A stretch of 64,000 nt of DNA from Chromatiales bacterium. GTDB taxonomy: Bacteria > Pseudomonadota > Gammaproteobacteria > Steroidobacterales > GCA-2729495. This document shows, piece by piece, positions 15,210 through 34,266 of the stretch (the first letter of the stretch is position 1; the number at the start of each line of letters is the position of its first letter). The stretch lies in NCBI GenBank assembly GCA_020351875.1, contig CP070671.1, forward strand, positions 2,372,155 through 2,436,154. The letters are read 5' to 3'. A program made the position numbers and the translations under genes. The notes below the pieces were generated by a model that was not told the origin of the DNA, did no database searches, and saw only the letters and a list, made by a program, of their open reading frames with translations.

Positions 15210-15877
15210 GACACGACCTGCCCAGCGGCCAGTTCCACGATCCGGTCGCAGCGCGCCGCCAGCTCGCGGTCATGGGTGACCAGTACCAGGGTGGTACGGG
15301 ACCGCCGGTTCAGCTGGAACAACAGCGACGCAACCCGCTCCCCGGTGCTCGTATCGAGATTACCGGTGGGTTCGTCCGCAAACAGGATTTCCGGGCTGGT
15401 AATGAACGCTCGGGATATCGCCACCCGCTGTTTCTCACCACCGGACAGTTGATTGGGGTAATGGCCGAGGCGCTCACCGAGCCCGATGGCCTCCAGCGCT
15501 TCGGTGGCCCGCTCGCGCGCACGCGCCTCGCCGGTGAGCTCCAGCGGCAACATCACGTTCTCCAGCGCGGTGAGCGACGGGACGAGGTGAAAGGACTGAA
15601 ACACGAACCCGACCCGGTCCCCCCGCAGCCGCGCCCGGCCATCTTCGTCCAGGGTGGTCAGGTCTTTGCCGCAAAGCCACACGTGGCCGTGGCTCGGCCG
15701 GTCGAGGCCGGCCAGCAGGGCCAGCAGCGTGGTTTTGCCGGCCCCTGACGGACCCACCAGGGCCACCGATTCGCCCGCCTGCACGGCTATACTGACGTTA
15801 TCCAGTATGGTCAGCGAGCCCTCGGGGCTGCTAACTTCCTTGCCCAGAGCCTCAGTGCGCAACACAGTGTCATCCAT
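15206..15877 (-). CDS. ybbA: ABC transporter ATPase YbbA (LolD-like)
   Basis: This is the ATPase partner of YbbP (223 aa from the chosen ATG). Walker A is GPSGAGKTTLLALLAG, the Q-loop VFQSFHLVPS, the ABC signature LSGGEKQRVAISRA, Walker B ILFADEPTGNLD and the H-loop VTHD. The start is placed at the ATG at 15877, which has GGA seven bases upstream; an in-frame ATG at 15889 is the alternative and would add four residues. The same CATG tetranucleotide also gives the start of divergent tesA. The ybbA-ybbP/tesA arrangement is conserved in gammaproteobacteria. Confidence 0.92.
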   Translation of the reverse strand: MDDTVLRTEALGKEVSSPEGSLTILDNVSIAVQAGESVALVGPSGAGKTTLLALLAGLDRPSHGHVWLCGKDLTTLDEDGRARLRGDRVGFVFQSFHLVPSLTALENVMLPLELTGEARARERATEALEAIGLGERLGHYPNQLSGGEKQRVAISRAFITSPEILFADEPTGNLDTSTGERVASLLFQLNRRSRTTLVLVTHDRELAARCDRIVELAAGQVVS

Positions 15878-16538
15878 GCGGTTATCCATAAAAGGAGTAT
15901 TCGTCCTGCTGCTGTGGGCGGTTGCGGGACCCCTGTCCGCCAGTTCCTCGGCACCGGCCATCCTGGTGGTGGGCGACAGCCTCAGCGCCGGTTTCGGCAT
16001 CGAAGTCTCCGACGGCTGGGTCGCATTGTTACAGGACCGGCTGAACGCGGAAGGTTACGAATATCGGGTGGTCAATGCCAGCATCAGCGGTGACACCACC
16101 GGCGGCGGCCTGCGCCGCCTGCCGCGGGCCCTGGAACGCCATCAACCGTCGATCACCGTGGTCGAACTGGGCGGCAACGACGGCCTGCGCGCAACGCCCG
16201 TCGCGATCATTCGCCGCAACCTGAAACGCATGGTCGAACTGAGCCGGGAAGCCGGATCGGACGTGGTACTGGCCGGCATGCAGCTACCCCCGAATTATGG
16301 TGCGGCCTACACCAACGCCTTCGCCGCGGTCTACGCGGAGGTCGCCGAGGAACTCGAGGTCACCCTGATTCCGTTCTTCATGGACGGCGTCGCCCTGAAC
16401 CCGGAAAAGCTCCTGCCGGACCTGATTCACCCGAACGCCGACGGGCAGCCGGTCCTGCTGGAAAACGCGTGGTCAGCCCTGAAACCCCTGCTCGCCGAAC
16501 CGGCCAGGGCCATGGAAGCGGCTACCGCTCTCCCCTGA
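15876..16538 (+). CDS. tesA: Arylesterase / lysophospholipase L1-like GDSL hydrolase
   Basis: This is a periplasmic SGNH/GDSL hydrolase of 220 aa acting on thioesters or lysophospholipids. A signal peptide of about 25 residues begins MRLSIKGVFVLLLWAVAG. The catalytic Ser is in VVGDSLSAGFG, the oxyanion Gly in SISGDTTGGG, the Asn in ELGGNDGLR, and Asp/His in DLIHPNADGQP. The ATG at 15876 is chosen because it gives a complete signal peptide, although no ribosome-binding site precedes it. Its start overlaps that of ybbA on the other strand. Confidence 0.92.
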   Translation: MRLSIKGVFVLLLWAVAGPLSASSSAPAILVVGDSLSAGFGIEVSDGWVALLQDRLNAEGYEYRVVNASISGDTTGGGLRRLPRALERHQPSITVVELGGNDGLRATPVAIIRRNLKRMVELSREAGSDVVLAGMQLPPNYGAAYTNAFAAVYAEVAEELEVTLIPFFMDGVALNPEKLLPDLIHPNADGQPVLLENAWSALKPLLAEPARAMEAATALP

Positions 16539-17232: not shown

Positions 17233-17243
17233 GCCGCTCCTAC
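17233..17243 (-). repeat. REP half-site at the end of the vWA gene
   Basis: On the minus strand the bases read GTAGGAGCGGC, the left half of the local REP consensus, followed by TTGC instead of TTCAGCC. The TAG inside it (17240-17242) is the stop codon of the von Willebrand A gene read on this strand. Confidence 0.6.
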
Positions 17244-18232
17244 TGGAGCGTCGTCAACGCCACAAACGTCCCGCCGTTCCGCTCACAAAGCGTCCGCATC
17301 AAATTCGCAAACCGCAACGCATTCGTCATGCGCCCACCGGCAAGCTGCGTCGGGAAGCCGACGCCGTGGATGCGGACCAGCCGATTGCCGAACTGGTCGG
17401 CGCGGTTCACCCGTTCGATGTAGCGAGCCACCGCTTCGACGGAGCCGCGCGGGAAATCGTCGCCGAACACGTAGATGCTCATCGACTTGCCCGGTTCGTA
17501 GAAGGTGTTGATTGCCTCGGTGATGCCCTCGACCGGGCTCGAGTCGCTGTAAGGGTTCCAGTTCGCGAGGCGATTGATGATGTTGCGGCGAGCCGACTCC
17601 GAGTCGGGTATCCAGCGCCCCGCGTAGGTCGAGAACATGTACTTGCCCTCGTCATTCAGCACCTGGATGCCCTTGACCCGGGGGTATACCGTGAGCGCCT
17701 CCTGCACCTTGCGCAGCACCAGCCGCCACGGGCCCTGGAACATGCTGCCCGACGTGTCGATCACGAACAGGATGTACTCGCTGTCTACCGGGATACCGCC
17801 CACGGTAGTCTGGTTCTCAGGCGGGCGGTAGTCGGCGAGCAGTCGCTGCATTTCCTCGGTGAGGCGCTGGCGGGCCGCGAGGAGTTCACCCATCACCTCG
17901 TCGTCCACCGGGTCGTCGCCCTGGGTGGCCGCGAAACGGCCCTGTAATTCGGACAGTTCGCCGCGCAGCCGGGCCAGTTGCTCTTCGGTGGATTCCAGGT
18001 CCTGGCGCGTGGTGACCATTTCCCGGTTCAGGATGGCCGTCTCGCCACGAATTTCGAACAGTTCTTTCTGCAACTTGGCCAACAGCGCGTCCAGGTCTTC
18101 CTTGCTGCGCTCGATGGTCAGAGGCTCGTAGATCTTCACCAGCACCAGCAGCAGGATCACCGCGCCAAAACCACAGGTGATTGCGTCCAGGAACGACAGG
18201 CTGAAGGTCTCCATGTCGCGGCGCTTCCTCAC
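17240..18232 (-). CDS. Membrane-anchored vWA protein with ExbD-like helix (second copy)
   Basis: 330 aa. An N-terminal transmembrane helix (residues about 12-33, SLSFLDAITCGFGAVILLLV) carries an acidic residue, Asp16, at the position where ExbD/TolR have their proton-carrying Asp. A coiled coil (about 45-135) leads to a periplasmic von Willebrand A domain with a full MIDAS start, VIDTSGS (159-163). The GTG at 18232 is chosen because it overlaps the previous stop (GTGA); the next in-frame ATG would leave the helix intact. It is a paralogue of the gene just upstream and last in the operon. Its TAG stop lies in a REP half-site. Function unknown. Confidence 0.85.
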   Translation of the reverse strand: MRKRRDMETFSLSFLDAITCGFGAVILLLVLVKIYEPLTIERSKEDLDALLAKLQKELFEIRGETAILNREMVTTRQDLESTEEQLARLRGELSELQGRFAATQGDDPVDDEVMGELLAARQRLTEEMQRLLADYRPPENQTTVGGIPVDSEYILFVIDTSGSMFQGPWRLVLRKVQEALTVYPRVKGIQVLNDEGKYMFSTYAGRWIPDSESARRNIINRLANWNPYSDSSPVEGITEAINTFYEPGKSMSIYVFGDDFPRGSVEAVARYIERVNRADQFGNRLVRIHGVGFPTQLAGGRMTNALRFANLMRTLCERNGGTFVALTTLQ

Positions 18233-19326
18233 GGCCAGTCCCTCGACGGGGTCAGGAACGAGCCGCGGGTGGACAGCGCCAGCCCCCACAGCAGCCCGGG
18301 GGCCTGCGGGTCACCGTCCATCGGGTACAGCACCACATTAATCGGCGACCGTTTCGGCAGCTCCCGCAACGCTCTTTCAAAATAATCCCGGCGCTTGTCG
18401 GGCCGGACCTTCTCCACTTTCGACGGCGCGGACTTGCCCTGGGTCGGCAGGCCGTCGGTCAACAGGTAGATGTTGTCCGGCGGCGGGTCCAGCAGGCTGG
18501 CGGTCCGGAAGGCGTTATAGAGACTCGTCCCTTTTTCCGGCGTCAGGGCTTTCAACGCATCGACAGCCCGTGTGAGCTCCGAGCCGTCCGTCACCTCCAG
18601 CCACCGCCCGGTGGTGCCGGCCACTACGCTCTCCGCGGTTTCGTTGAACGTGTAGATCTGGAAACGGGTGCCGGGGACGATCTGGGCGGTCAGCCAGTCT
18701 ACCGTCCTGACGGTCTGCAGCCACTTCGGCGCGCGCCGGCGACGGGCCTCGGGCATATTGCGGAAACGGATCACGTTCACGTAGGTGCGCGCGAGCATGC
18801 TGTTGGATGCATCCACGAGAATGAGGACGCGGTTGCCGCCCATCTTCATGCCGGTAAGGTATTGCCGGTTGCCGTCGCCGACAAAGCTGCGAATCCTGCG
18901 CCCGGTCTGCGGCGTTTCCGGGGTGGTTTGCGAGGCGAGCCGCTCTTTCGCCTTTTCCAGGCGCTCGATGTCGGCCTGCAGGTCTTCGACGCTGTCGACA
19001 CGTGCCAGCGACCGGTTGTCCAGCTCGGACAACTGCTCGCGCAGCATGGCCAGGGTTTCCTCGAGCCTTGCCTGCTCTTCTTCGGCCGACAGTTTTTTCC
19101 GGCGGTCGGAGTCGAGCACGGTGCGCACCCGCACCATTTTCTTCCGGCCGTCGAGCACTTCTTCTTCCAGGCGATTGGTCTCGGCCTGCAGTTCCACGTT
19201 CGCCTTGCTGGCCCGCACCGAGACCTGCGCGTTGATCACCATGAAGAACAACACCACGGCCCCGAGACCGCAGGCCATCACGTCGAGGAAAGACAGGTTG
19301 AAGACGTTGAACTGCCTACGCGCCAT
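18229..19326 (-). CDS. Membrane-anchored vWA protein with ExbD-like helix (first copy)
   Basis: 365 aa. It has the same plan as its downstream paralogue: a helix NLSFLDVMACGLGAVVLFFM (10-29) with Asp15 in an F-[LI]-D-V-M context very close to ExbD, a Glu/Lys-rich coiled coil at about 44-133, then a vWA domain with MIDAS residues VDASNS (172-176), a GTSLYN threonine loop and LLTDGLP. The vWA fold usually binds a partner protein through a divalent metal. It overlaps the FHA gene by 11 bases upstream and the second vWA gene by 4 downstream. Together with the ExbB-like protein it could form the rotor/stator pair of a proton-driven complex (inference). Confidence 0.85.
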   Translation of the reverse strand: MARRQFNVFNLSFLDVMACGLGAVVLFFMVINAQVSVRASKANVELQAETNRLEEEVLDGRKKMVRVRTVLDSDRRKKLSAEEEQARLEETLAMLREQLSELDNRSLARVDSVEDLQADIERLEKAKERLASQTTPETPQTGRRIRSFVGDGNRQYLTGMKMGGNRVLILVDASNSMLARTYVNVIRFRNMPEARRRRAPKWLQTVRTVDWLTAQIVPGTRFQIYTFNETAESVVAGTTGRWLEVTDGSELTRAVDALKALTPEKGTSLYNAFRTASLLDPPPDNIYLLTDGLPTQGKSAPSKVEKVRPDKRRDYFERALRELPKRSPINVVLYPMDGDPQAPGLLWGLALSTRGSFLTPSRDWP

Positions 19327-20677
19327 CCGCCGGTACCTCGATCACCACGCGAAACTCCCGCGGCGGGCTGCCGACGCTGATGACATCGCCGGCCTGCAGG
19401 ACCGCCGAGCCGTCGATGGCATGACCGTTCAAGCGCGTGCCGTAGCGGCTGTGGTCCCGCAACGTGATGCGGCCATCCTCGCTCTGCACGCTGCAGTGGC
19501 GCCGGGACACGCCGGCGATGGTGCTGTCGAGCGCGATCCCGTAGTCACCCGGTGTGAGCGCAGTGCCGATACTCAACGCACCGGCTCCCAGGCGATAGGC
19601 CCGGTTGCCGTCGAGCAGGTGCGTAGGCAGTGCGGCTGCCCGGGTTTCCGGGGCCGGCGTATCGGGGGCGGCCGGTTGATCCCAGGGCAGCCGGGTAATC
19701 AGCCGCATGGCGCCGTCTGTCTTGCGGCTCGCGGCGCGTATCGCACCGCTCGCCACTGCGCCCGGTTCGAGGACGAAAACAGCGGTGTCCGGCAGCGCAC
19801 TGAGCGCTGCGACGACTCCGGGAAAAGCCGCCAGGCGCGAGCCCAGCTGCACTGCGGCCGGGCGCCCGGCCGGCAATAACGCGCGCAGGCGCTGCAGCAA
19901 CGGCTGGCAGGCCTCCGTCACGCGCGCGGCCAGTGCCGCCTGCTCGAGCCGGGCCTCGAAAGTGCCGGCCCGGGCAGACAATTCAGCCTCGACCGCAGGC
20001 CCGCGCGTCAACTCATCGAGCCAGTCGTCCAACCGGTCGTATAGCGCCTGTTCCGAGTCCGCGTCGTGCAACGGATCGAAACGGGCGTCGTTCACGAAGC
20101 AACTCGCGAGATAGGCCATCACCACACGCTCCAGCCGCTCCACACCGATGTCCGCGAGGCAGTGGCGCTCGCCGAGACCCGCCTGCCCGTCCTGGACGAT
20201 CTGGACCAGGTCGGTCGCGTGCAGACGGGCCTCAACGGCAAACAGCGCCCGGCCGGGATATTCCCGGCGCGTCGCCGCGACGGCAGCGTCGACGAATCCC
20301 GCCACCGGCATGCCTTCTTCCTGCGCGATCCCGAGCAACAATCCCAGTTGCTCTGCCGTCCAGCTCGCGGGCACCGCAAACACCGCGGCATCGCAATCGC
20401 TGCCATGGGCCTGCCATAACCCAGCCAGTTGCGCGTGCGCCAGGTCAGCGGCGTTGTGCGCCAGGCCCACCGGCTGGGCAAAGGACTCTTCCGACAGCGC
20501 CTCCCAGTACCGGTTGTGCAGCCGGCGAGGGTATCGGCGGGCCACGGCCCTGGCCTGGCGACCGAACAGCAGGTCACCATCCGGTGCGACGGCGTATCCC
20601 GGCTCCTCGAAACGGAGTTCGCCCGCCACCACGCCGGTTAGCGACGCGTCGTTGAACTCGATGGCCAGCGCGCTCAT
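19316..20677 (-). CDS. Hsp70/actin-fold protein with C-terminal FHA domain
   Basis: 453 aa, no signal peptide or membrane helix, so cytosolic. The first ~330 residues have the look of a degenerate Hsp70-type ATPase (AVFAVPASWTAEQLGLLLG, then FVDAAVAATRREYPGRALFAVE; later VQLGSRLAAFPGVV). Residues about 360-445 form a forkhead-associated domain (LSIGT..., VSRRHCSVQSEDG, RYGTRLNG), which binds phosphothreonine peptides. With the Ser/Thr kinase in the same operon this is probably the phospho-reader of the pathway. It overlaps the vWA gene by 11 bases. I know of no named family with exactly this pairing. Confidence 0.75.
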   Translation of the reverse strand: MSALAIEFNDASLTGVVAGELRFEEPGYAVAPDGDLLFGRQARAVARRYPRRLHNRYWEALSEESFAQPVGLAHNAADLAHAQLAGLWQAHGSDCDAAVFAVPASWTAEQLGLLLGIAQEEGMPVAGFVDAAVAATRREYPGRALFAVEARLHATDLVQIVQDGQAGLGERHCLADIGVERLERVVMAYLASCFVNDARFDPLHDADSEQALYDRLDDWLDELTRGPAVEAELSARAGTFEARLEQAALAARVTEACQPLLQRLRALLPAGRPAAVQLGSRLAAFPGVVAALSALPDTAVFVLEPGAVASGAIRAASRKTDGAMRLITRLPWDQPAAPDTPAPETRAAALPTHLLDGNRAYRLGAGALSIGTALTPGDYGIALDSTIAGVSRRHCSVQSEDGRITLRDHSRYGTRLNGHAIDGSAVLQAGDVISVGSPPREFRVVIEVPADGA

Positions 20678-20686
20678 GGGCAGTGG

Positions 20687-21484
20687 CTAGGCAGCCTGCA
20701 GGTGTCGGATCAGGCGCTGGTCGACGTAGGTTTCGGTTTCGAAAACCAGCCGCTCCTGCAACAACTGCAGCTGGTGGACCAGGAACATCAGCACGATGCT
20801 GATGATCAGGGCGATGAACGTCGAGTTGAAGGCCACGCCCAGGCTCTCGGTCACGCCGCTGATATCGCCGTCGACCGCCCGGTGCGCCAGGCCCAGCGCG
20901 GCACCAATACCGCGCACGGTACCGATGAAGCCAATGGACGGGATCGCCCAGGCAATGTAACGAATCATCGACAACTCCGACTCCAGCCGCTCGGCCTCGG
21001 AAGTCATCATCGTGTGCGTTGCCGATGAAACGTCCTGCACGTTGCGCGTGGCGCCGAACCTCTGCAGTGCAGACCGCAGGGCCCGCGGCAACAGCAGCCC
21101 CTGCTCTTTGTCTGGCAGGGCCTCCAGTTGTCGCGCATATTCACGCGTGTCCTCGGGCAGTATTCGCACACCTTCGGCAACGGGCACGAGCTCCTGGTTC
21201 AACAGGCCCCGTTCGCCCGTCGCGTCATAGGCCTTGTAACCCATGATCGCCAGTGCCCAGAGCATCATGATGAAACAGGCTTCCTGTTCGAAGTCCTGCA
21301 CGATCACGAACAGCGACCGCTCCGGAATGTATTCCGGATCCTCCGCGATCAGCATGCGTTGCTCCTCCTGCACGGCTGCCGCGTTGGGCCGGATTACCGA
21401 CACGTATATCGCGTGCACGATAATCACCGAGATGATCAACGAGAACACCTGGTAGACAAACTCGGTGGAAAAACTTCTGTTCAT
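20687..21484 (-). CDS. MotA/TolQ/ExbB-family proton channel subunit
   Basis: 265 aa inner-membrane protein. Helices are at about 10-31, 70-86, 172-200 and 214-238. The third and fourth form the conserved channel pair; IPSIGFIGTVRGIGAAL matches the ExbB/TolQ signature. In known systems a pentamer of this subunit uses the proton-motive force with a dimer of an Asp-bearing single-helix partner (ExbD, TolR, MotB). The only such partners here are the two vWA proteins encoded downstream. The extra N-terminal helices are not usual for TolQ. No exbD or tonB is adjacent. Confidence 0.85.
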   Translation of the reverse strand: MNRSFSTEFVYQVFSLIISVIIVHAIYVSVIRPNAAAVQEEQRMLIAEDPEYIPERSLFVIVQDFEQEACFIMMLWALAIMGYKAYDATGERGLLNQELVPVAEGVRILPEDTREYARQLEALPDKEQGLLLPRALRSALQRFGATRNVQDVSSATHTMMTSEAERLESELSMIRYIAWAIPSIGFIGTVRGIGAALGLAHRAVDGDISGVTESLGVAFNSTFIALIISIVLMFLVHQLQLLQERLVFETETYVDQRLIRHLQAA

Positions 21485-21502
21485 GTCGATCCTGCGACTG
21501 CT

Positions 21503-21838
21503 TTAAATATCCGAAGGCAACGCGATGGCGAGGTCAGCGGCCAAAGGCTTCGACGGCGTGAACTCCTCGAGGTCTTCGTCCTCGGCGCCGGCAACGGCTG
21601 CCTCGATGCGCGCGAGCTCATCTTCCATGTCCTCGGTGCTCATTTCCGGGATGGCCGGTGGTGTCCCGGCTTCGGGTTCCGCCTGCTCCCCGGTACCTGC
21701 CGCCGGCGCCCTGCCGCCGGTCTCCACCTGCGTCAGCACGGGCACGCCGTCCTGGACGGCGCTGCGCACGACCTGCTCGGCCGCCCAGGTCACCCCCAGC
21801 GCAGCGACCGCAATCAGCAGGATTCGCAGCATATGCAT
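21503..21838 (-). CDS. Small membrane-anchored acidic protein
   Basis: 111 aa. An N-terminal hydrophobic segment (about 4-20, LRILLIAVAALGVTWAA) is probably an uncleaved anchor or signal peptide. It is followed by a Pro/Gly/Ala linker and an acidic region rich in Glu/Asp (residues about 63-92, including AEDEDLEEF). No family is recognised. It lies 3 bases past the PEGA gene and 18 before the ExbB-like gene, so it is surely part of the same operon. A role as an assembly or linker subunit is only a guess. Confidence 0.7.
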   Translation of the reverse strand: MHMLRILLIAVAALGVTWAAEQVVRSAVQDGVPVLTQVETGGRAPAAGTGEQAEPEAGTPPAIPEMSTEDMEDELARIEAAVAGAEDEDLEEFTPSKPLAADLAIALPSDI

Positions 21839-21841
21839 CGC

Positions 21842-24277
21842 CTAGTTCTCCGCCCCGTCGGCGTCCACCCATCTTGCAAGCCGAAAGCCGACATCGAGCC
21901 GGCCACGGTCACCAAAGTCGCGAAACGACCAGCGCAGTTCGCTGATGCTCGCGTGACGCCAGCTCGAGCCGCGAATGACATGATACTGGCCCTTGTCGGC
22001 TCCGAGGGGATCTGTCGTGACCCCGCTGGTGCGGGTATTCACCGAGTACAGGTCGTGCATCCACTCGGCCGCGTTGCCGCCCAGGTCGTGCAGGCCCAGC
22101 ACGCTGGCGCGAAACTGCCCCACCGGTGATGTGACCGGAAAACCGTCGTTGTAGTTCTTGAGCACATTGGTCAGCACGCCCTTCGCCGAGCGGTCGGCGA
22201 AATTACCGGCGCCGCTCGTCGGCGGCATGCGGGGCCCCCAGGGATACTTCAGCGTCTCGGCACCCGCATTGTGACGGGCGGCCCACGCCCACTCGGCCTC
22301 CGTCGGCAGGCGATACCCGTTGGTTGCCGGGTCCGCCAAGCGGAAGGCACCCCCCAGCGCCACGTACGCCGGCGGCAGGCCATCCTGCGCGCTCAGCCAG
22401 TTGCAGTAAGCGACCGCGTCGGCCCAGGACAGCATCACGGCGGGATGATCGCCGATGCTGAGCTCCCGAAAGGTCTCGGCCCCGGAGGTATGCTGCGCAC
22501 TGAACGCCCGGTACTCGCTGTTCGTCACTTCTTTCGTCGCGATGTAAAAACGCCTGGTCAGGCGCACCTCGCGCTCGGTTTCATTCGCCCGCCGGCCCTG
22601 TTCGCGGCGCGGAGCGCCCATTCGAAACTGGCCCGGATCGACCAGCACGAGCTTGGCGCCCTGGCCGGTGGTGATCTTGCGCGGCGTGCGCGCGAGGACC
22701 GCCTGCGCCTCGGTCAGCATCCGAACTTCGACCAGTTGCGGCAGACCCGGCTTCGGCGTCACCTGGGCACGAAAATCGGCAAAGCCCGCCTTGCGGACCA
22801 GGATGTCGTGCGCCCGCGCGGGCAAGGTCAGGGTTTGCTGACCCTGGCCCACGCTGCGACCGTCAACCAGCACGGTGGCATCGGCCGGCATGCCGACGAT
22901 GCGTACCTCCCCCAGGACGGGTTCCAGCGTCAGTTTCAGCGTCTTCGGCTGACGATCCGGCATGTTCACCCGGCGCGTGACCGTGGTGTAACCGGCTTTC
23001 GACACGATCACGTTGTAGCTCGCCCCCGGCTTCAACTCGGCGTCCACCGGCGTGGTGCCACGGTAGCGATTGTTGATGCTGACCGCCGCACCGGCGGGCT
23101 GGCTGCGCACGGTCAGGATGCCGTCGGCCACCGCCAGCTCGATGGCCGGCAGTTCAATCTGCTGTCCGGGCTCCACGGTGAGCTGCTGGCGCCAGGGTGT
23201 GTAGCCGTCACGCCGGATCACGAGTTCATGGGTGCCGGCCAGCAACTCGATGGTGCCGGGCGTGACGCCGAGCACGTCCTCGCCAACAAAGACCTCGGCT
23301 TCCGGCGGCGTCGTCGTCACGCGCACGTCCGCCCAGGCTGGCTCCAGCGTCACGGTCACTTCCTGCCGCCGGCCCAGGCCTTCCACCTCCACGCTGGTCT
23401 CCAGCGGCAGGTAGCGCTCGGCGACGACCCGCAACGCGTGAGGCCCCGCCACCAGCTCGATTTCGTCGGTCGGCGCGGTGCCTGCCGGTGCCCCATCGAC
23501 GGACACCTCGGCCGGCACGCCCGGGCCGGTCAGCACCACGATGCGACCGGGCAACTTCGTCATTTCGAAACGAAATTCCTGGCTCGGTCCCCGCAGGACC
23601 CGGATGTCTTCTACCTGCTTTGCGTAACCCTCCGCCGACAACAGCACGCGATACTCGCCGGGCCAGAGCAGGTAGCGTCCGCCAAAGGGGACTTTCACGA
23701 GCCCACCGGCAATCTGGATTTCGGCGGCGACCGGTTCCACGTCAAGCCTTATTGCCTGGGCGGTGAACAGAAACAGCGCAACCGCCAGCAGGATGCCCAG
23801 GGCGGCCCAGACCGCATAGCGCCAACGGCGTTGCGGCGATGGCTCGTCAGTGCGGCCGGTCACGGTGTCCCGACGCTGCCGGGCAACGGCAGTGATGACC
23901 GGTTCGTCTTCTGCCGGTGCCGCCTCGATTTCGGGCGGCAGGGTCTGGTATTCGTCCTGGGTCTGGGCCACGCGGAAGTGCCACTGACCGTCGGCGATGG
24001 CGCATTCGATGCGGGCGGTATCGGTGCCGATCACATCGCCGTCGGTGAGCCAGCGCGCGGCATCGACCGGGTTACCGTTCAGTACCAGCCGCGCGCCGGG
24101 CGCTGGCTGCAGCAGCGGCCGCCCGTCGAGATCACTGACCTGGGCGATGGGTGCCGATCCCACCGCCCCGGGCACCCGCAGCGCGCAGTCGGCACCCGCG
24201 CCCAGGGCCAGCGGCAGATCTCCGGGCCCAAAACGGCGCTCACCGGCCGGCGTGTCAACGCGAATTTCGAGGCTCAA
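21842..24277 (-). CDS. FHA-like, PEGA-repeat protein with formylglycine-enzyme-like C-terminal domain
   Basis: 811 aa, probably anchored with its C-terminus in the periplasm. Residues about 1-105 look like a degenerate FHA domain; a helix at about 154-175 crosses the membrane; then come about five PEGA-type beta repeats (motifs such as AEVFVGEDVLGVTPGTIEL, AAVSINNRYRGTTPVDAEL). From about residue 546 there is an FGE/sulfatase-modifying-factor fold (PGQFRMGAP, YRLPTEAEWAWAAR, LGGNAAEWMHD, RGSSWRHAS...VGFRLAR). The two Cys that catalyse formylglycine formation are not seen (RGSSWRHAS in their place), so this is more likely a binding domain. TTG start overlapping the kinase stop (TTGA). Confidence 0.82.
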   Translation of the reverse strand: MSLEIRVDTPAGERRFGPGDLPLALGAGADCALRVPGAVGSAPIAQVSDLDGRPLLQPAPGARLVLNGNPVDAARWLTDGDVIGTDTARIECAIADGQWHFRVAQTQDEYQTLPPEIEAAPAEDEPVITAVARQRRDTVTGRTDEPSPQRRWRYAVWAALGILLAVALFLFTAQAIRLDVEPVAAEIQIAGGLVKVPFGGRYLLWPGEYRVLLSAEGYAKQVEDIRVLRGPSQEFRFEMTKLPGRIVVLTGPGVPAEVSVDGAPAGTAPTDEIELVAGPHALRVVAERYLPLETSVEVEGLGRRQEVTVTLEPAWADVRVTTTPPEAEVFVGEDVLGVTPGTIELLAGTHELVIRRDGYTPWRQQLTVEPGQQIELPAIELAVADGILTVRSQPAGAAVSINNRYRGTTPVDAELKPGASYNVIVSKAGYTTVTRRVNMPDRQPKTLKLTLEPVLGEVRIVGMPADATVLVDGRSVGQGQQTLTLPARAHDILVRKAGFADFRAQVTPKPGLPQLVEVRMLTEAQAVLARTPRKITTGQGAKLVLVDPGQFRMGAPRREQGRRANETEREVRLTRRFYIATKEVTNSEYRAFSAQHTSGAETFRELSIGDHPAVMLSWADAVAYCNWLSAQDGLPPAYVALGGAFRLADPATNGYRLPTEAEWAWAARHNAGAETLKYPWGPRMPPTSGAGNFADRSAKGVLTNVLKNYNDGFPVTSPVGQFRASVLGLHDLGGNAAEWMHDLYSVNTRTSGVTTDPLGADKGQYHVIRGSSWRHASISELRWSFRDFGDRGRLDVGFRLARWVDADGAEN

Positions 24278-26586
24278 ATCGGTTCCTCACACCTGACGAC
24301 CACCGGTGGTGTCGTGCCATCCGCCGCGACGCGGAATGCACGCCGCGCGTCACGGTATCCCTCTCGCGTGCCGACCGCCACGTAGCTGCCTGGCCGCAGG
24401 TCGACCGTGCGCGTCGCGAATACACCCAGCCGCCCGACCTTGTAGATCACGACGTCGGTGAGACTATCGGACTCGAAACGCACCGGCACGGGTGTCGCCG
24501 CGATCTGCAGTGCGCGCTCCAGCGCCGCGATCTGCGCGGCCAGCTTGCTGCCCATGGGCTGCTCTTTGCGCGCTGTGTCCGCCAGGGCCCGTGCCTTTTG
24601 CCAAACGCGTTCGTCATTCAGCTTGTCGGCGTTGGCGACTTCGGCATCCAGGCGGGCAGACAACTCGGCGCGGCGCCGAGCGGTTGCCAGGCCCTGCCTG
24701 GCCGACTGCAGGGTCGAATCGATTCCCAGCGCAGATTCGTACTGGCCCACCGCGCCTTCCCAGTCTTCTTCGGCCGCCAGTTCCCTCGCGCGGGTCTCGA
24801 AGGTCACCACTTGCTGCAGCCTCTCTTCGGCCGCGATCTGCGACAGCGCGGCGCGTGCATCGGCATCGCCCGGCCGGGTGCGCAATGCGGCCTGGAATGC
24901 GCGCCGGCCCGCAGCCCAGTCGCGGCTAGCAATGGCCGTGTAGCCCGCGGCCATCTGCTGTTCATAGGCGGCCTGCGACAGCGCGCCCTCGGTTCGCGCA
25001 ACACCCTCCTGCGCCGGCCTCCAGTCGGGGTCTATCGCCAGCGCTTCGCGGTAAAAGCCGGCGGCGGCGGCGAGGTCGCCGGCCGATTCTTTCGCGGTCG
25101 CGTCGCTCATCAACGCCAGCACTTCCTGCAGCCGGCCGGCACGCTCCAGCCCGCGCTTTGCCGCGTCGTTGTCGCTGTCGACCGCCAGCGCCAGTTCGTA
25201 GCGGTCGAGCGCCGTCGCCCGATCCCCGGCAAGGAGTGCCGTTTCCGCCTCGGCCAGCGCAGTCGCGAGAACCTCCGGCACGCGGGTCTCGATCACTTTC
25301 AACAGGGTCAACGCGCGCCGGTAACCCGTTGCCGCCACCGGGTAGTTGCGTTCCCGGTAACGTGAATCGCCGTCGGCGGCCAATCGTTCGGCTTCCGTCC
25401 AGTCGGCTCCGCCCCAGCGCGCGACGCCCTGTTCCTCCAGGCGATCCCGTAACACGAGCAACTCGCCGAGCACTTCGTCGGCGCCGGCCTGCTCTTCGGG
25501 CGACGAGGCCTGGTCCGGAAGTTCCTCCGGCGGCTCTTCCGCAGGCGCCTGAGCCGGTGCCGGGCTCACCGTGACCGGGCCGCGCTCCTCGACGACGGAT
25601 GGCAGCAGGAATACCACGCCGAGCACTGCGCCAAGCAACACGACAAAGGCCACCAGGACCCAGCTGCCCGGCAGGCCGCTGGCGCGCCGGCCCGGGGTAA
25701 CGGGAGTCGGTCGGGCAGTTGCAGGTGCCGCCTTCGGTCGCCGCCGCACGGGTTGAATGACGCCCGCGGCCGGACCCGCATCTGCTGCCACTTCGTCCAG
25801 CACGCTGCGCACCGCGGCCATGCCCACCGGACGTCGAGTCGCATCTTTGTGCAGGGTGGCTGCCAGCAAGCTGCGCAGCGCGGCCGGGATCGGCTTGCCG
25901 GTACCGTCGAGTTCGGGAATCTCCGGCACCTCCTCGCGCACGCGTTCCGGCGTGGCTCCGGGGTGAAACAGCGGCTGGCCGGACAGCAATTCGTAGAACA
26001 GCGCGCCGAAGCCGTAGACGTCGTCAGCGACCTCGGGCGGGTTACCGTCGAGTTGCTGCGGACTCATGTACGGCAGGGAACCACCGCCGCGCAGACTCGC
26101 GGCCGAGGAGTCCCGGCCCGCAGCGATTCCGAAATCGGCCAGGTAGGCGACGCCGCGGGGATCCACCAACACGTTCGACGGCTTCAGATCGCGGTGCACG
26201 AGGCCTTCGCGATGCGCGTATTCCAGCGCGTCACAAACCATCTGGCACTGCACCAGTAAATCGGTCAATGCGCCGCCGCGCCGCTGCAGGAGGCTGCCGC
26301 CGGGCACGTACTGCATCGAAATGAAGTACCGGCCGTCGGTCTCGTGGAAGTCGTGCACGCGCACGATGTTCGGATGCTGCAGCTGGCGTGCCTTGCGGCA
26401 CTCGTCCCGCAACAGGCGGACGTGCCGATCCGAGCCCGCGAGCGCGGGCGCAAGAATTTTCAGCGCCAGGTCCTGGTCGAGTTCGCGGTCCTGGGCCAGC
26501 CACACCTCGCCGCTACCGCCCTCACCGAGGCGGCTACGAAGTTCGAAACGGTCGCCGAGAACGACGCCTGGAGACAATTCCGTCAT
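24274..26586 (-). CDS. Transmembrane Ser/Thr protein kinase with TPR-like and PEGA-like extracytoplasmic part
   Basis: 770 aa. The cytosolic Hanks-type kinase domain (about 14-270) is complete: glycine loop LGEGGSGEVW, Lys43 in ALKIL, HRDLKPSN at 131-138, DFG at 151-153 and SLPYMSPQQLDG. One helix (about 303-325) follows a Pro/Arg-rich linker. The periplasmic half is helical, with TPR-like units between about 395 and 690, and ends in a short PEGA-like beta segment. This is an intact kinase and probably the controlling sensor of the operon. A preceding lipoprotein gene lies 42 bases upstream. Confidence 0.9.
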   Translation of the reverse strand: MTELSPGVVLGDRFELRSRLGEGGSGEVWLAQDRELDQDLALKILAPALAGSDRHVRLLRDECRKARQLQHPNIVRVHDFHETDGRYFISMQYVPGGSLLQRRGGALTDLLVQCQMVCDALEYAHREGLVHRDLKPSNVLVDPRGVAYLADFGIAAGRDSSAASLRGGGSLPYMSPQQLDGNPPEVADDVYGFGALFYELLSGQPLFHPGATPERVREEVPEIPELDGTGKPIPAALRSLLAATLHKDATRRPVGMAAVRSVLDEVAADAGPAAGVIQPVRRRPKAAPATARPTPVTPGRRASGLPGSWVLVAFVVLLGAVLGVVFLLPSVVEERGPVTVSPAPAQAPAEEPPEELPDQASSPEEQAGADEVLGELLVLRDRLEEQGVARWGGADWTEAERLAADGDSRYRERNYPVAATGYRRALTLLKVIETRVPEVLATALAEAETALLAGDRATALDRYELALAVDSDNDAAKRGLERAGRLQEVLALMSDATAKESAGDLAAAAGFYREALAIDPDWRPAQEGVARTEGALSQAAYEQQMAAGYTAIASRDWAAGRRAFQAALRTRPGDADARAALSQIAAEERLQQVVTFETRARELAAEEDWEGAVGQYESALGIDSTLQSARQGLATARRRAELSARLDAEVANADKLNDERVWQKARALADTARKEQPMGSKLAAQIAALERALQIAATPVPVRFESDSLTDVVIYKVGRLGVFATRTVDLRPGSYVAVGTREGYRDARRAFRVAADGTTPPVVVRCEEPI

Positions 26587-26628
26587 GGAGCAACGGGGCG
26601 TCGCGCAACTTCGCGCGGCGCCGGGCTG

Positions 26629-27873
26629 TCAGTCAACGGGTGGCTCTATGGGTTCACCGGCGGACTCCGACAACGTCACCAGGCCCGTCTCGCGCGAGTA
26701 GATCTCGCGCAGAATCCGGCGCCATTCCCGGTATTTCTCTTCCGCGGTGCCGGTCAGCCGTCGGGTTTGCCCGTCCACTTCGATCAGCAGCGGCTCGGCC
26801 TCCGCGTCAAAAGAGTCGCCAAGTTCTTTCAGCGAGTCGCGGTGCAGGTTGGCTTCGGTGGACTTGCCCATTCCGCTCTTGAACACTTCCATGCCGCCGA
26901 CGATCGCCGTGGTAGTAATCGCGGAATTGCCGCCACCGTTGGCCTCGTAGGCCACCGCACCCAGTATCGCCGCCAGGCCCATCAACTGGCGCATTCGCGC
27001 CGAGCGCTTCAGCTCCTGGTAGGTCAGCGTCTCTTCGCGGGACATGCGCCGCCAGTCTTCATACGGCGTGGACAATTCGTAGTACAGGCTCGCGTAGTAC
27101 TCATTCAGCGTGTCGACGAGTATGTACTCGCGTTCCCGGACGGCTCGCATGCGCTGCATCATCGGATCGTCTTCGGCGGGCAGACGCTTCACGACATAGC
27201 GGCCCTTCTTTTCTTCCAGGTACTCGTCGAAGGCATCGGGCACGAGGTCTGCTGCAAAACGCAACTCGGACACCTGGCGAACCCGTTCCAGGTCGCGCGC
27301 GGATATTCCCTGGCGCAACTTCAACAGGTCGTTGGCCACTTCGTTGTAAAGGGACTGATACGGATCCTGGCTGCGATCGCGGTAGTTTGAATAGGCCTTC
27401 TGGGCAACTTTCGCCTTGTAGGTCTTGTTCATCCACTCCCGGCCGGTGGCATCCCAGGCCGCAACCCGCAATTCCACGTTGAGTCCGTCGGAGCGGTCGA
27501 TCCGCCCGCCAACCAGCAGGTCAACGGCATCGGAACGCTCGGGCACAACCCAGACAGAGCCCCAGTAACCGCTGTCTTCCAGGGTGGCCTTCAGGTGGTA
27601 CGGCATGAACCGCGCCTCGGCTCGGCGAACAGCGGGAAAGGTAAAGCCGTCGGGTTCCGTCACGTCGTCCGGCACGCCCGGATCGAACAGCATGATGCCG
27701 ACGTCGAGAAGTTCGGCAGGCGGCACGTCGGTCTCGGCGCGCACCATTTCGACCTGGTCGTACTCCACCGTGCGCGACGCCGCGCAGCCGCTGATCACGG
27801 CCGCCAGTAGCAGCAGCTCGACCAGGCGAATCAGCCGGGCAAACGGGGATTGTTGGTTCTGTGGACTATGCAT
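26629..27873 (-). CDS. Lipoprotein of unknown function
   Basis: 414 aa with a signal peptide ending in a lipobox, LLLAAVISGCAAS; the residue after Cys is Ala, which favours outer-membrane sorting. The mature part is mixed alpha/beta, with VGIMLFDPGVPDD near the start, a central charged helical region, and a hydrophobic patch LMGLAAILGAVAYEANGG around 285-305. I do not recognise a family, although related lipoproteins seem to occur with such kinase/vWA operons. It is 6 bases past the Gly-rich lipoprotein gene and 42 before the kinase. Confidence 0.75.
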   Translation of the reverse strand: MHSPQNQQSPFARLIRLVELLLLAAVISGCAASRTVEYDQVEMVRAETDVPPAELLDVGIMLFDPGVPDDVTEPDGFTFPAVRRAEARFMPYHLKATLEDSGYWGSVWVVPERSDAVDLLVGGRIDRSDGLNVELRVAAWDATGREWMNKTYKAKVAQKAYSNYRDRSQDPYQSLYNEVANDLLKLRQGISARDLERVRQVSELRFAADLVPDAFDEYLEEKKGRYVVKRLPAEDDPMMQRMRAVREREYILVDTLNEYYASLYYELSTPYEDWRRMSREETLTYQELKRSARMRQLMGLAAILGAVAYEANGGGNSAITTTAIVGGMEVFKSGMGKSTEANLHRDSLKELGDSFDAEAEPLLIEVDGQTRRLTGTAEEKYREWRRILREIYSRETGLVTLSESAGEPIEPPVD

Positions 27874-27879
27874 AGCAGA

Positions 27880-28839
27880 TTACTTTTTCTTGATACCCAT
27901 GTGCCGACGGTATTCGTCCCACAGTGCGTCACGAATCTGCGGATCCGTTTCGGCCATGGCGGCTTCGCGAATTTGCTCCGCAACCTGGTCTTCGCCCGTG
28001 CCGTCGGTCGGGATGTCTTCCGGAATCTCGGCAACCCTGCCGCTGTCACGATCCGACGATTCGAAGTCACCGCCTTCGCCGTCGTAGGTGACCTTATCCT
28101 GGCCTTCGCCGGCGTTCGCACCGGCGGCGCCCTGGCTCTGGCTGTCGGATCCGCTCGATCCGTCAGTGCTGCCACCTTCCATGCCACCTGCCATACCGCC
28201 GCTCATGCCGCCGGCCTGGCCCATGCTGCCTCCCTGGTCACCGCTCATGCCGCCGCCAACGTCGCCGAAGCCACCCATGCCACCCGTACCGGCCTGCTCG
28301 ACCTGGGCCGCATCCGCAGCCTCCCGATCTGCAGCCCCACGGCCGGAGCCCTGGCCGGTGCCGGCGATACGTTCCTGCTCGCCCTGCATTTCACCGTCGA
28401 AATCTCCAAGGGAACCATCGAAGATGGCTTCGAGATCGGCATCGCTGCCATACGTGCCGGCGCCCTGCCCGGCACTCCCGCCCTGCCCCTGCTGGGAACC
28501 TTCACCCTGCTGGGAACCTTCACCCTGCTGGGAGCCCTCGCCTTGCTGGGAACCCTGTCCCTGCTCCTCGCCACCGACGGACGGCATGCTGCCGCTGGAC
28601 CCAGAGCTGCCGGGCAATTGCTCGCCGCTTTGCGGCATACCGCCGCCGGACGACCCGGAAGACGGGAACGGTGAGCCGCTGCTGCCCGAGGAACCACTGC
28701 TGCCCGAGGAGCCGGACTGCGGGGATGGCAACGAGCTGCCGGACGACCCGGAGCCGCCCATCGAGCTTGAGCTGCACCCGGCCACGGCCAGCAGCAGAAT
28801 TAGTACCGGAATTGAGACGGGTTTAATCAATGAGTCCAT
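27880..28839 (-). CDS. Gly/Ser/Gln-rich lipoprotein with tandem repeats
   Basis: 319 aa; signal peptide and lipobox LLLAVAGCSSS. Almost the whole mature protein is low complexity: GSSGSSGSS runs, four GSQQGE units (about residues 94-118) and a GGMSGGMAGGMEGG stretch. Only the last ~40 residues look folded (DQVAEQIREAAMAETDPQIR, then LWDEYRRHMGIKKK). It may be a flexible outer-membrane tether for the complex below. It is the first gene of the tight operon, with a perfect TATAAT about 20 bases upstream. No family recognised. Confidence 0.75.
   Translation of the reverse strand: MDSLIKPVSIPVLILLLAVAGCSSSSMGGSGSSGSSLPSPQSGSSGSSGSSGSSGSPFPSSGSSGGGMPQSGEQLPGSSGSSGSMPSVGGEEQGQGSQQGEGSQQGEGSQQGEGSQQGQGGSAGQGAGTYGSDADLEAIFDGSLGDFDGEMQGEQERIAGTGQGSGRGAADREAADAAQVEQAGTGGMGGFGDVGGGMSGDQGGSMGQAGGMSGGMAGGMEGGSTDGSSGSDSQSQGAAGANAGEGQDKVTYDGEGGDFESSDRDSGRVAEIPEDIPTDGTGEDQVAEQIREAAMAETDPQIRDALWDEYRRHMGIKKK
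28483..28554 (-). repeat. Four 18-bp tandem repeats inside the Gly-rich lipoprotein gene
   Basis: Four imperfect 18-base units with the plus-strand core CCCTGCTGGGAACC encode the GSQQGE repeats. The second and third units differ by a single base, indicating recent slippage. Because 18 is a multiple of 3, copy changes would lengthen or shorten the protein without a frameshift. Confidence 0.8.
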
Positions 28840-28859: not shown

Positions 28860-28865
28860 ATTATA
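28860..28865 (-). promoter_or_regulatory. Perfect -10 box before the kinase/vWA operon
   Basis: The minus strand reads TATAAT here, 20 bases upstream of the ATG of the Gly-rich lipoprotein, predicting a very short 5' leader. The -35 region at 17-18 bases spacing (ATGATAG) matches poorly, so activation by another factor is possible. Confidence 0.45.
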
Positions 28866-28955
28866 AGGGAGGCACCATCAGCCTATCATTTGGAACCCGG
28901 CACAGGCGCCGAGTTCACAATATTTCGCTACGTAAAAGCCGAAGGTTTCGGCCCC

Positions 28956-29630
28956 TCAGCCGGCCTTGCCGTTGTCAGCCACGGGCAATTCGGCAAACAG
29001 GCGCTCGGCGGTCATCCGACACAACTCTGCAAAGGTCACCGGATCCTCCCGACCGGTGTCGTAGGCGAAATTCAGTTCACCGCTCCCCTCCCAGACGACG
29101 GTGCCGGACTCGGCATCCCAGATCTGCAGGAAGATGCGCAGGTTGCCCTGCTTGGTGTCGAACATGCGCAGCCCCAGAAAAGAAAAGCGACCCCGGTTGC
29201 CCTGGGAAAACCCCGCCAGGCTGAGCTGGGCCAGGTAGCGCACACGACTCGTTTCACCAACGTCTGCGAGCACGTCGGCATCGAGAATGCCGGTCTGCAG
29301 GTAATCCCGGTACATCGCCTTGTATTCCTGATCGAGGTTGGCTTTATTCACCCCGTTCAGCACCTCGGCGAGCCCCCGGATTTCGAGCGCCGGTCGCGCA
29401 TCGCTAAGGGCCTTCGCAAAACTCTGCGCCAGCGCCTGCTTGTCGGCTTCCCGCCCGGTACCCGCTGCCGGCGTCAGAAAACCAATACCGTGAGCCTCGA
29501 GGTCCGTTGCCCCGAGACTCAGGCCCGTGTGCTCCACGTTGTAATTGAGCTGGCCCCTAGTGCAGGCTGCAAGCATCAGGCTCGCGCACAGCGCCACGCC
29601 GCATTGGCTCAATCGACCTTGTCTAACCAT
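28956..29630 (-). CDS. Lipoprotein of unknown function (penicillin-binding-protein-activator-like size)
   Basis: 224 aa from the ATG at 29630; the open frame is longer but only this start gives a lipoprotein signal, ALCASLMLAACTRG. The mature part has conserved-looking folded segments: GIGFLTPAAGTG, LAQLSLAGFSQGNRGRFSF, VWEGSGELNFAYD. This suggests a small envelope protein of mixed alpha/beta fold, but no family is named with confidence. It is 116 bases upstream of the TATAAT-led operon and may be transcribed separately, although it shares orientation and a lipoprotein character with the two genes that follow. Confidence 0.7.
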   Translation of the reverse strand: MVRQGRLSQCGVALCASLMLAACTRGQLNYNVEHTGLSLGATDLEAHGIGFLTPAAGTGREADKQALAQSFAKALSDARPALEIRGLAEVLNGVNKANLDQEYKAMYRDYLQTGILDADVLADVGETSRVRYLAQLSLAGFSQGNRGRFSFLGLRMFDTKQGNLRIFLQIWDAESGTVVWEGSGELNFAYDTGREDPVTFAELCRMTAERLFAELPVADNGKAG

Positions 29631-29802
29631 AAGATTTAACGAATCACACCGTCCCGGGTTGACAGAGTTTGCCAGACTCCGGGCCGGGAGCCACGCGGTG
29701 CTGTAGACTCGCCGCCCACCGCCGGGCCCTTCATCCGGCGTGACCTGCGATTCGAAAACCACCGGGTGGGGCCGCATTCGCGGCAGCCGACGGAGGCAAA
29801 TA

Positions 29803-34100: not shown

Positions 34101-34266
34101 GTTGACCCCTGACGTGCGTTGAACCGCGGGCATTGTCGCACCCGGCACAGGTCTTTGCACCCGGGACCGGTGCGCGGCGGCGGCCTGTGCCGACGTGGCG
34201 AAGGCGCGGCATTCCTGCTACGTTGCGCCCGCAGCCCCATGTAGTTATCAGTCATTGGAGTCAGCC

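Follow-up and report, generated by a model that had tools for sequence, protein, structure and literature searches.

In bacteria, work at the outer membrane is powered by proton-driven motors of the 5:2 type. In a 64,000-nucleotide stretch of the genome of a Chromatiales bacterium (assembly GCA_020351875.1, contig CP070671.1, positions 2,372,155 to 2,436,154 of the forward strand; hereafter the window), an operon-like set of nine minus-strand genes at 17240-28839 encodes an ExbB/TolQ-like channel subunit, two vWA proteins (vWA1 and vWA2), two lipoproteins, a Ser/Thr kinase with a transmembrane (TM) helix and a TPR-type region, a PEGA/FGE TM protein, an Hsp70-like protein with an FHA domain and one small protein. 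An initial annotation, made from the letters of the DNA, regarded it as a kinase-controlled, ExbB-driven envelope machine belonging to no described system. The question raised by this locus is which proteins would serve as partners of the channel subunit, and what the remaining genes would add to it. Our analyses make it highly probable that the channel subunit and the vWA pair form the core of a motor, and we favor, with somewhat lower confidence, the view that the whole operon encodes a trans-envelope motor of the 5:2 type with a vWA axle, a scaffold and optional phospho-control.

The vWA pair and the channel subunit

Both vWA proteins begin with a basic stretch, followed by a membrane helix of the form FLD..CGFGA. 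The Asp of this helix is invariant in both families: in vWA1 (D15, codon 19282..19284, minus strand) it is Asp in 71 of 71 filled rows, four of the 75 rows being gapped, and in vWA2 (D35 of the long open reading frame (ORF), codon 18185..18187, minus strand) in 81 of 81 rows, window included. The D.S.S residues of the MIDAS type are likewise kept, in 73/73 filled rows of vWA1 and 81/81 of vWA2. Among the six ExbD proteins of the same genome, two, the sole ones given by a motif search, carry LTPMLDVVF at the matching place. Regarding the channel subunit, T189 (codon 20918..20920, minus strand) and T222 (codon 20819..20821, minus strand) align with T145 and T178, respectively, of a TolQ of known structure (E 0.0072), and both are Thr in all 64 ExbB-like rows. 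Given the invariant Asp in the ExbD/TolR-like helix of each vWA protein, and the pore threonines that the ExbB-like protein shares with TolQ, the axle of the motor is most likely the vWA pair in place of ExbD.

The genomic context was examined in the same genome. Of its seven MotA/ExbB-family genes, five have an ExbD gene no farther than about 1.5 kb away, and the gene of the window adjoins the vWA pair; one other (L189 5618-6784, minus strand) appears, on reading its sequence, to combine ExbB and a TonB-like C-terminal part in a single ORF. None of the six ExbD matches falls within the operon, the nearest being more than 100 kb away. The initial annotation had stressed that ExbD, TolR and MotB are missing: this is correct for the ExbD gene, the function of which is probably supplied by the ExbD/TolR-like pore helix of both vWA proteins.

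The profiles of vWA1 and vWA2 align over nearly their full length (hhalign E 1.1e-29), indicating that the two proteins are, at the level of sequence, paralogues over nearly their whole length. The window's vWA2 has no Pfam VWA match of its own; the earlier assignment of a second vWA protein is borne out by this profile alignment and by VWA_2 matches in 9 of 21 members of its family. Its translation probably begins with the GTG at 18232 and thereby overlaps the stop of vWA1. A PDB search with the vWA1 profile gave chiefly coiled-coil matches and two weak vWA-type rows (E 0.09-0.1), which were not used.

Orphan vWA2 genes exist, and ExbD, TolR and MotB are homodimers; vWA1 and vWA2 might thus each form a homodimer, in two distinct motors built on a common type of ExbB-like ring. 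We consider this unlikely, as the two genes occur jointly, in a constant order, in nearly all loci (69/72), and heterologous vWA pairs are reported in PMC12204202.

A published prediction of the motor core

That article (Williams-Jones et al. 2025, Mol Biol Evol), in the part available, describes a second membrane-tethered vWA family tightly linked to tolQ homologues, without tolR/exbD. Its vWA proteins occur mostly in heterologous pairs and carry a TolR/ExbD-like pore helix with an Asp; a Thr ring and AF3 (AlphaFold3) models are presented, the Asp and Thr residues are stated to form a proton path in related motors, and no deletion phenotypes for vWA transducers are reported in that part. The core of the window operon shares the following traits of this TPH-vWA/TolQ-like motor: a TolQ-like gene stands beside the vWA genes (ExbB in 58/62 named loci with room, vWA1 in 28/28 loci picked by ExbB); the vWA genes form a pair of different members (69/72, with the profile alignment given above); their pore helix has a conserved Asp (71/71 filled rows and 81/81); tolR/exbD are absent from the neighborhood in the own genome; and a threonine ring is present at the residue level (T189 and T222, 64/64).

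The available text differs in that it lacks the lipoprotein, TM-TPR/kinase, PEGA/FGE and Hsp70/FHA genes of the window operon. The word kinase has no occurrence in it and FHA has one, in a passage on FhaC; therefore, these genes are not discussed in that text. As judged by titles and the beginnings of abstracts, literature searches gave no description of the wider gene set; von Willebrand is not mentioned in the available parts of PMC9389320 and PMC12505986, which deal with the same motor class, nor are vWA proteins in that of PMC12905483, a 2026 review citing PMC12204202. Thus, the claim of a system without description stands for the wider gene set, and not for the TolQ-like and paired vWA core: the core was published as a prediction in 2025, and the conserved whole operon is, as far as the literature was checked, undescribed. 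New here are this conserved operon, the lipoprotein Lip2 with a CsgG/FlgT/TolB-N-like fold, the Hsp70-fold protein with degenerate ATP motifs, and the pseudo-FGE/PEGA scaffold.

Conservation of the gene set

An ExbB-like homologue with E <1e-80 was found in 48 of 60 genomes of the same taxonomic order, own genome included. Around ExbB matches we selected 28 loci, in all of which ExbB is hence present by choice; vWA1 occurs in 28/28 of them and vWA2 in 27/28 (absent from L037). Upstream of ExbB, the genes for Lip2, the TM-TPR/kinase protein and the PEGA/FGE protein follow in the same gene order in all 24 long loci (L033-L056, from 23 genomes of that taxonomic order). The gene set is not a chance assembly, since its order recurs in loci of other genomes.

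At greater distance, the vWA1 profile matched 21 of 274 genomes sampled from the class, own included, one of which (G148) matched only at 5e-11 and has no vWA1 at its locus, L098; and 14 of 299 genomes sampled from the phylum, own included, 12 of these belonging to one family of another class. From these class and phylum matches we selected 18 further loci, with ExbB in 17/18 and vWA1 in 17/18, the order being kept except in L088; the Hsp70-like gene is often absent among them.

The vWA2 profile was also run over named genome contigs, giving at least 583 matching stretches (one gene can give two), from which the best 80 loci by vWA2 match were taken. Counting only loci with enough upstream sequence, and keeping three orphan vWA2 loci as misses, the frequencies were vWA1 69/72, ExbB 58/62, PEGA/FGE 51/56, kinase/TM-TPR protein 48/54, Lip2 45/52 and Hsp70-like 48/66. 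The titles of the 80 loci comprise Gammaproteobacteria and other Proteobacteria, Desulfobacterales and other former Deltaproteobacteria, Acidobacteriota, Myxococcales and one Phycisphaerales; as each of these titles designates a metagenome-assembled genome, individual names could reflect misbinning. Among 198 genomes sampled from the phylum to which one Desulfobacteraceae genome belongs, 3 have the system, the central genome included. Judging from the number of matching stretches, the system is probably encoded in hundreds of genomes. A search for the ExbB-like gene next to the two vWA genes and the kinase, which the initial annotation had proposed as a check, yields a conserved ExbB/vWA set and a kinase domain that is not general; its refuting condition, a set lacking conservation in other genomes, is answered by these loci, in which the gene set is conserved.

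Variant copies were also recorded. Orphan vWA2 copies lie in L116, L118 and L121 (near 10000) and at L188 3992-5026, the L121 genome carrying two. L055, a second copy in genome G057, is a divergent operon (ExbB 35% identical) with no recognized Hsp70-like gene; the main version is present in the same genome.

Lipoprotein, putative scaffold and Hsp70-fold proteins

Lip2 gave only single weak Pfam matches, in two of 36 members. Its AlphaFold2 model (mean predicted local distance difference test score, pLDDT, 82.4) consists of an alpha/beta domain and a long helical hairpin, and the domain compares with those of FlgT, PelC, CsgG and TolB at Z 8.1-11.8 (VIA). A TolB type in particular was not adopted for Lip2, the alpha/beta fold being shared and these four proteins not separable within that range. 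Several proteins of the CsgG/FlgT/PelC/TolB kind assemble into outer-membrane rings, and Lip2 is on this ground a candidate for the outer partner. That Lip2 is the target of the force is a tentative assignment, to which we give rather less than an even chance.

Pfam confirmed most of the domains initially proposed, namely Pkinase (E 8.9e-40), four PEGA repeats, the FGE-type domain, MotA_ExbB, FHA (453-aa protein) and VWA_2 (365-aa protein); the FHA-like N-terminus assigned to the PEGA/FGE protein was not recovered, with no Pfam FHA match in 30 members (E 0.01). The Hsp70-like assignment holds at the level of the fold (AlphaFold2 mean pLDDT 93.3; Foldseek Hsp70 probability 1.00, E down to 4.5e-15), and a Pfam HSP70 match was not obtained. 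The phosphate-binding motifs expected of an Hsp70 are not conserved; since the ATP/phosphate motifs are degenerate, the protein may not hydrolyze ATP.

The FGE-type domain has no Cys at residues 766-804 of the window protein, the stretch in which the catalytic Cys positions of FGE lie; across the family, position 801 (6/58) is the only one in this stretch where Cys is among the four commonest residues. Formylglycine chemistry is unlikely, as judged from the Cys missing from this stretch. The small protein was recognized by profile in 12 of the 80 named loci.

The kinase module

The Pfam kinase domain is found in 18 of 49 homologues of the kinase/TM-TPR protein, and TPR_2 in 43 of 49; in the window protein itself, the TPR-type region is only weakly matched (TPR_12 E 0.011). 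With a profile of our own, the kinase domain was present in 22 of 51 loci and not detected in 29, of which three (L129, L144 and L159) start at the edge of a contig. As the named-locus kinase alignment was gappy, these two counts were used for the presence of the kinase. The corresponding alignment (A5) comprised 48 of 51 kinase/TM-TPR homologues plus the window row, rows shorter than 430 aa being left out; alignments A6, A7 and A8 comprised 36/51, 35/47 and 29/57 such named-locus rows, respectively, plus the window.

The Hsp70-like protein accompanies 22/22 kinase loci vs 15/29 without a detected kinase. An HRD-type (or HGD) loop together with DFG is kept in nine of the 22 kinase loci, all nine with FHA; seven have FHA without both motifs, and six have neither FHA nor both motifs, L137 among these keeping DFG alone. 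FHA is also present in six loci without a detected kinase. As for the domain N-terminal to the TM helix of the PEGA/FGE protein, the 15 clear cases without it all stand alongside an Hsp70-like gene, and it is kept in all 14 evaluable loci without that gene. These patterns of kinase, FHA and N-domain would fit a link between kinase and FHA. A quick LG+G4 tree of 52 rows gave six kinase changes and two changes of the Hsp70-like partner; the independent pairs were too few for a sign test of whether the two are lost together.

From these counts, the kinase is an accessory module, its domain being optional in the family; therefore, the term kinase-controlled fits this lineage at most. The kinase is indeed there in the lineage of the window, and in most homologues the kinase domain is undetected or lacks its motifs, with the TM-TPR part kept. 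Kinase control in the window's lineage is, in our view, evenly balanced between true and false.

The same data bear on a different role for the complex, as a sensor whose vWA heads and PEGA/TPR/pseudo-FGE parts would sense the envelope, the channel and axle signaling inward to the kinase and FHA proteins. The many binding-type domains and the FHA/kinase parts of the window version, the Hsp70-like partner of every kinase locus (22/22) and the want of an obvious effector speak for such a role. It is nonetheless improbable, given that the kinase is not detected in 29/51 loci (three at a contig edge), that both motifs are kept in only 9/22 of the detected ones, and that Asp and Thr of the pore show no variation; since the pore residues are invariant while the kinase is often undetected or motif-less, selection seems to act on the motor and not on a signal output.

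Comparison with known systems

Tol-Pal resembles the proposed machine in its inner-membrane motor, and the Lip2 domain resembles the N-domain of TolB, among others. In contrast to Tol-Pal, no TolR (PF02472), TolA, propeller or Pal was found by Pfam among ten locus proteins. A copy of Tol-Pal was rejected on account of the missing TolR; a separate TolQ/TolR-like/TolB_N set lies elsewhere in the genome. GldLM/GldKN of type IX secretion likewise combine a motor with an FGE-type protein, and the top NCBIfam match is GldK at 102.2 bits, GldJ also being matched; the GldK cut-off, however, is 350, and no other model of that secretion system is listed for the ten locus proteins.

The kinase, FHA, FGE-like protein and lipoprotein resemble parts of the threonine phosphorylation pathway of type VI secretion (PpkA, Fha, TagQRST), which would make the operon a type VI control module of the PpkA/Fha/TagR-like kind; TIGR03354 (TagH) is matched at 26.3 bits, its cut-off being 120.25. 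That pathway is not known to include ExbB and the vWA pair. The kinase is, moreover, not conserved, and the VipB sheath profile (PF05943) has no match in the own genome, which is 95.57% complete, the control being that this profile matched 1 of 14 genomes, E. coli. The module was rejected on this basis, and insofar as VipB is diagnostic it is refuted; we assign it a very low probability.

Equally improbable is a Zorya-like anti-phage motor. Zorya ZorAB shares a MotA/ExbB-type motor with an unusual partner, and the ExbB-like protein has a weak ZorA match (E 3e-4). This was the only such match listed: no ZorB, ZorC or ZorD is among the matches listed for the ten proteins (for the kinase, the best 25 of 33). 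The set is, in addition, a conserved chromosomal operon common in the order, where 48 of 60 genomes hold the ExbB-like gene at E <1e-80, unlike patchy defense genes, and the system was rejected. PADLOC gave many kinase matches (PD-T4-6, E down to 2.6e-60), taken as general Ser/Thr kinase similarity.

Gene layout and neighboring genes

The nine ORFs are all open at 17240-28839 (Table 1). As initially described, gaps do not exceed 42 bases, and at five junctions the genes either overlap or are no more than 6 bases apart; from the first gene onward, the intergenic distances are 6, 42, -4, 3, 18, 9, -11 and -61 bases. Two promoter-like matches were found in the region vs 1.4 expected by chance.

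Table 1. Genes of the operon and the upstream promoter-like match, in window coordinates.
Feature	Position	Strand	Description
vWA2	17240..18289	minus	One TM helix (FLD..CGFGA), coiled coil, vWA domain (presumably periplasmic)
vWA1	18229..19326	minus	365 aa; one TM helix, coiled coil, vWA domain (VWA_2 E 4.7e-6)
Hsp70-like protein	19316..20677	minus	453 aa; Hsp70 nucleotide-binding-domain fold with C-terminal FHA (E 7.6e-11); probably cytoplasmic
ExbB/TolQ-like channel subunit	20687..21484	minus	MotA_ExbB E 1.2e-14; TolQ alignment
Small protein	21503..21838	minus	N-terminal TM/signal helix; weak conservation
PEGA/FGE TM protein	21842..24277	minus	N-domain, then TM helix, four PEGA repeats, FGE-type domain
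Ser/Thr kinase/TM-TPR protein	24274..26586	minus	Kinase domain 15-258, TM helix 310-328, TPR-type region
Lip2	26629..27873	minus	Lipoprotein; alpha/beta domain ~49-190 and long helical hairpin
First gene of the set	27880..28839	minus	Gly/Ser-rich low-complexity lipoprotein; no Pfam match
Promoter-like match	28860..28889	minus	10/12, TATAAT; just upstream of first gene; weak evidence

Just upstream of the operon, at 28956-29777 on the minus strand, lies a lipoprotein-like gene with homologues upstream of the operon in L038, L041 and L042 of the 28 loci, several of which are too short to judge; it may be a part-time tenth member. Elsewhere in the window, a 773-aa ORF at 34195-36516 (plus strand) joins HMG-CoA reductase (PF00368) to a GHMP kinase (PF00288/PF08544), a fusion of mevalonate-pathway type, and genes for an FtsX-type permease and an ABC ATPase at 12717-16538, divergent from a GDSL esterase, resemble the ybbAP-tesA arrangement.

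Proposed mechanism and significance

The conservation of the gene set, the domains, the folds and the invariant residues are the observations on which our proposal builds, and the motor identity is supported by the invariant residues and by the models published for a core of this kind. The original proposal of an ExbB-driven envelope machine with two vWA subunits is well supported. The ExbB-like protein would build a pentameric channel in the inner membrane, in which vWA1 and vWA2, by means of their ExbD/TolR-like pore helix, would insert as a dimeric and probably mixed axle. Proton flow past the two Asp residues and the two threonine rings would turn or cycle this axle, and the periplasmic coiled coils and vWA heads would relay the force outward, with Lip2, the domain of which resembles those of CsgG, PelC, FlgT and TolB, as the likely outer partner. 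The TM-TPR protein and the PEGA/pseudo-FGE protein would constitute a periplasmic scaffold or sensor, and cytoplasmic phospho-control may be added by an active kinase domain and the FHA-bearing Hsp70-fold protein in some lineages, that of the window among them. We infer the stoichiometry, rotation, proton use, topology, partner contacts and direction of force of this arrangement, the task of which may be envelope maintenance or a surface function.

Several observations weigh against this proposal. The ExbD Pfam profile (PF02472) does not match the vWA proteins (E 0.001, whole genome), and the helix similarity therefore depends on a motif of short length. In L088 the ExbB gene comes only after vWA2, L096 is without ExbB, and so is L172, where the locus stands beside a masked stretch. 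In 3 of 72 loci (L116, L118 and L121) vWA2 is an orphan without vWA1 or ExbB, so that vWA2 may have another use. For Lip2, the best Foldseek rows are mostly TolB and LptE, with a best E of 1.0e-3, and its fold is common to many lipoproteins. Finally, the independent changes behind the link to the kinase are few.

With its full conserved gene set, the predicted motor core becomes a testable machine, having Lip2 as a candidate partner, a scaffold and a phospho-switch that is optional. If true, the transmission of force across the envelope by a heterodimeric axle with vWA heads at its end would be unusual. In its widest form, to which we grant only just under an even chance, the proposal is that bacteria of several phyla possess a hitherto undefined trans-envelope machine, in which a mixed vWA1/vWA2 axle inside an ExbB-like ring would act on Lip2 via a PEGA/pseudo-FGE/TPR scaffold, with kinase/FHA control being optional; if true, it would form a motor class of its own next to Ton, Tol, Mot, Gld, Agl and Zor.

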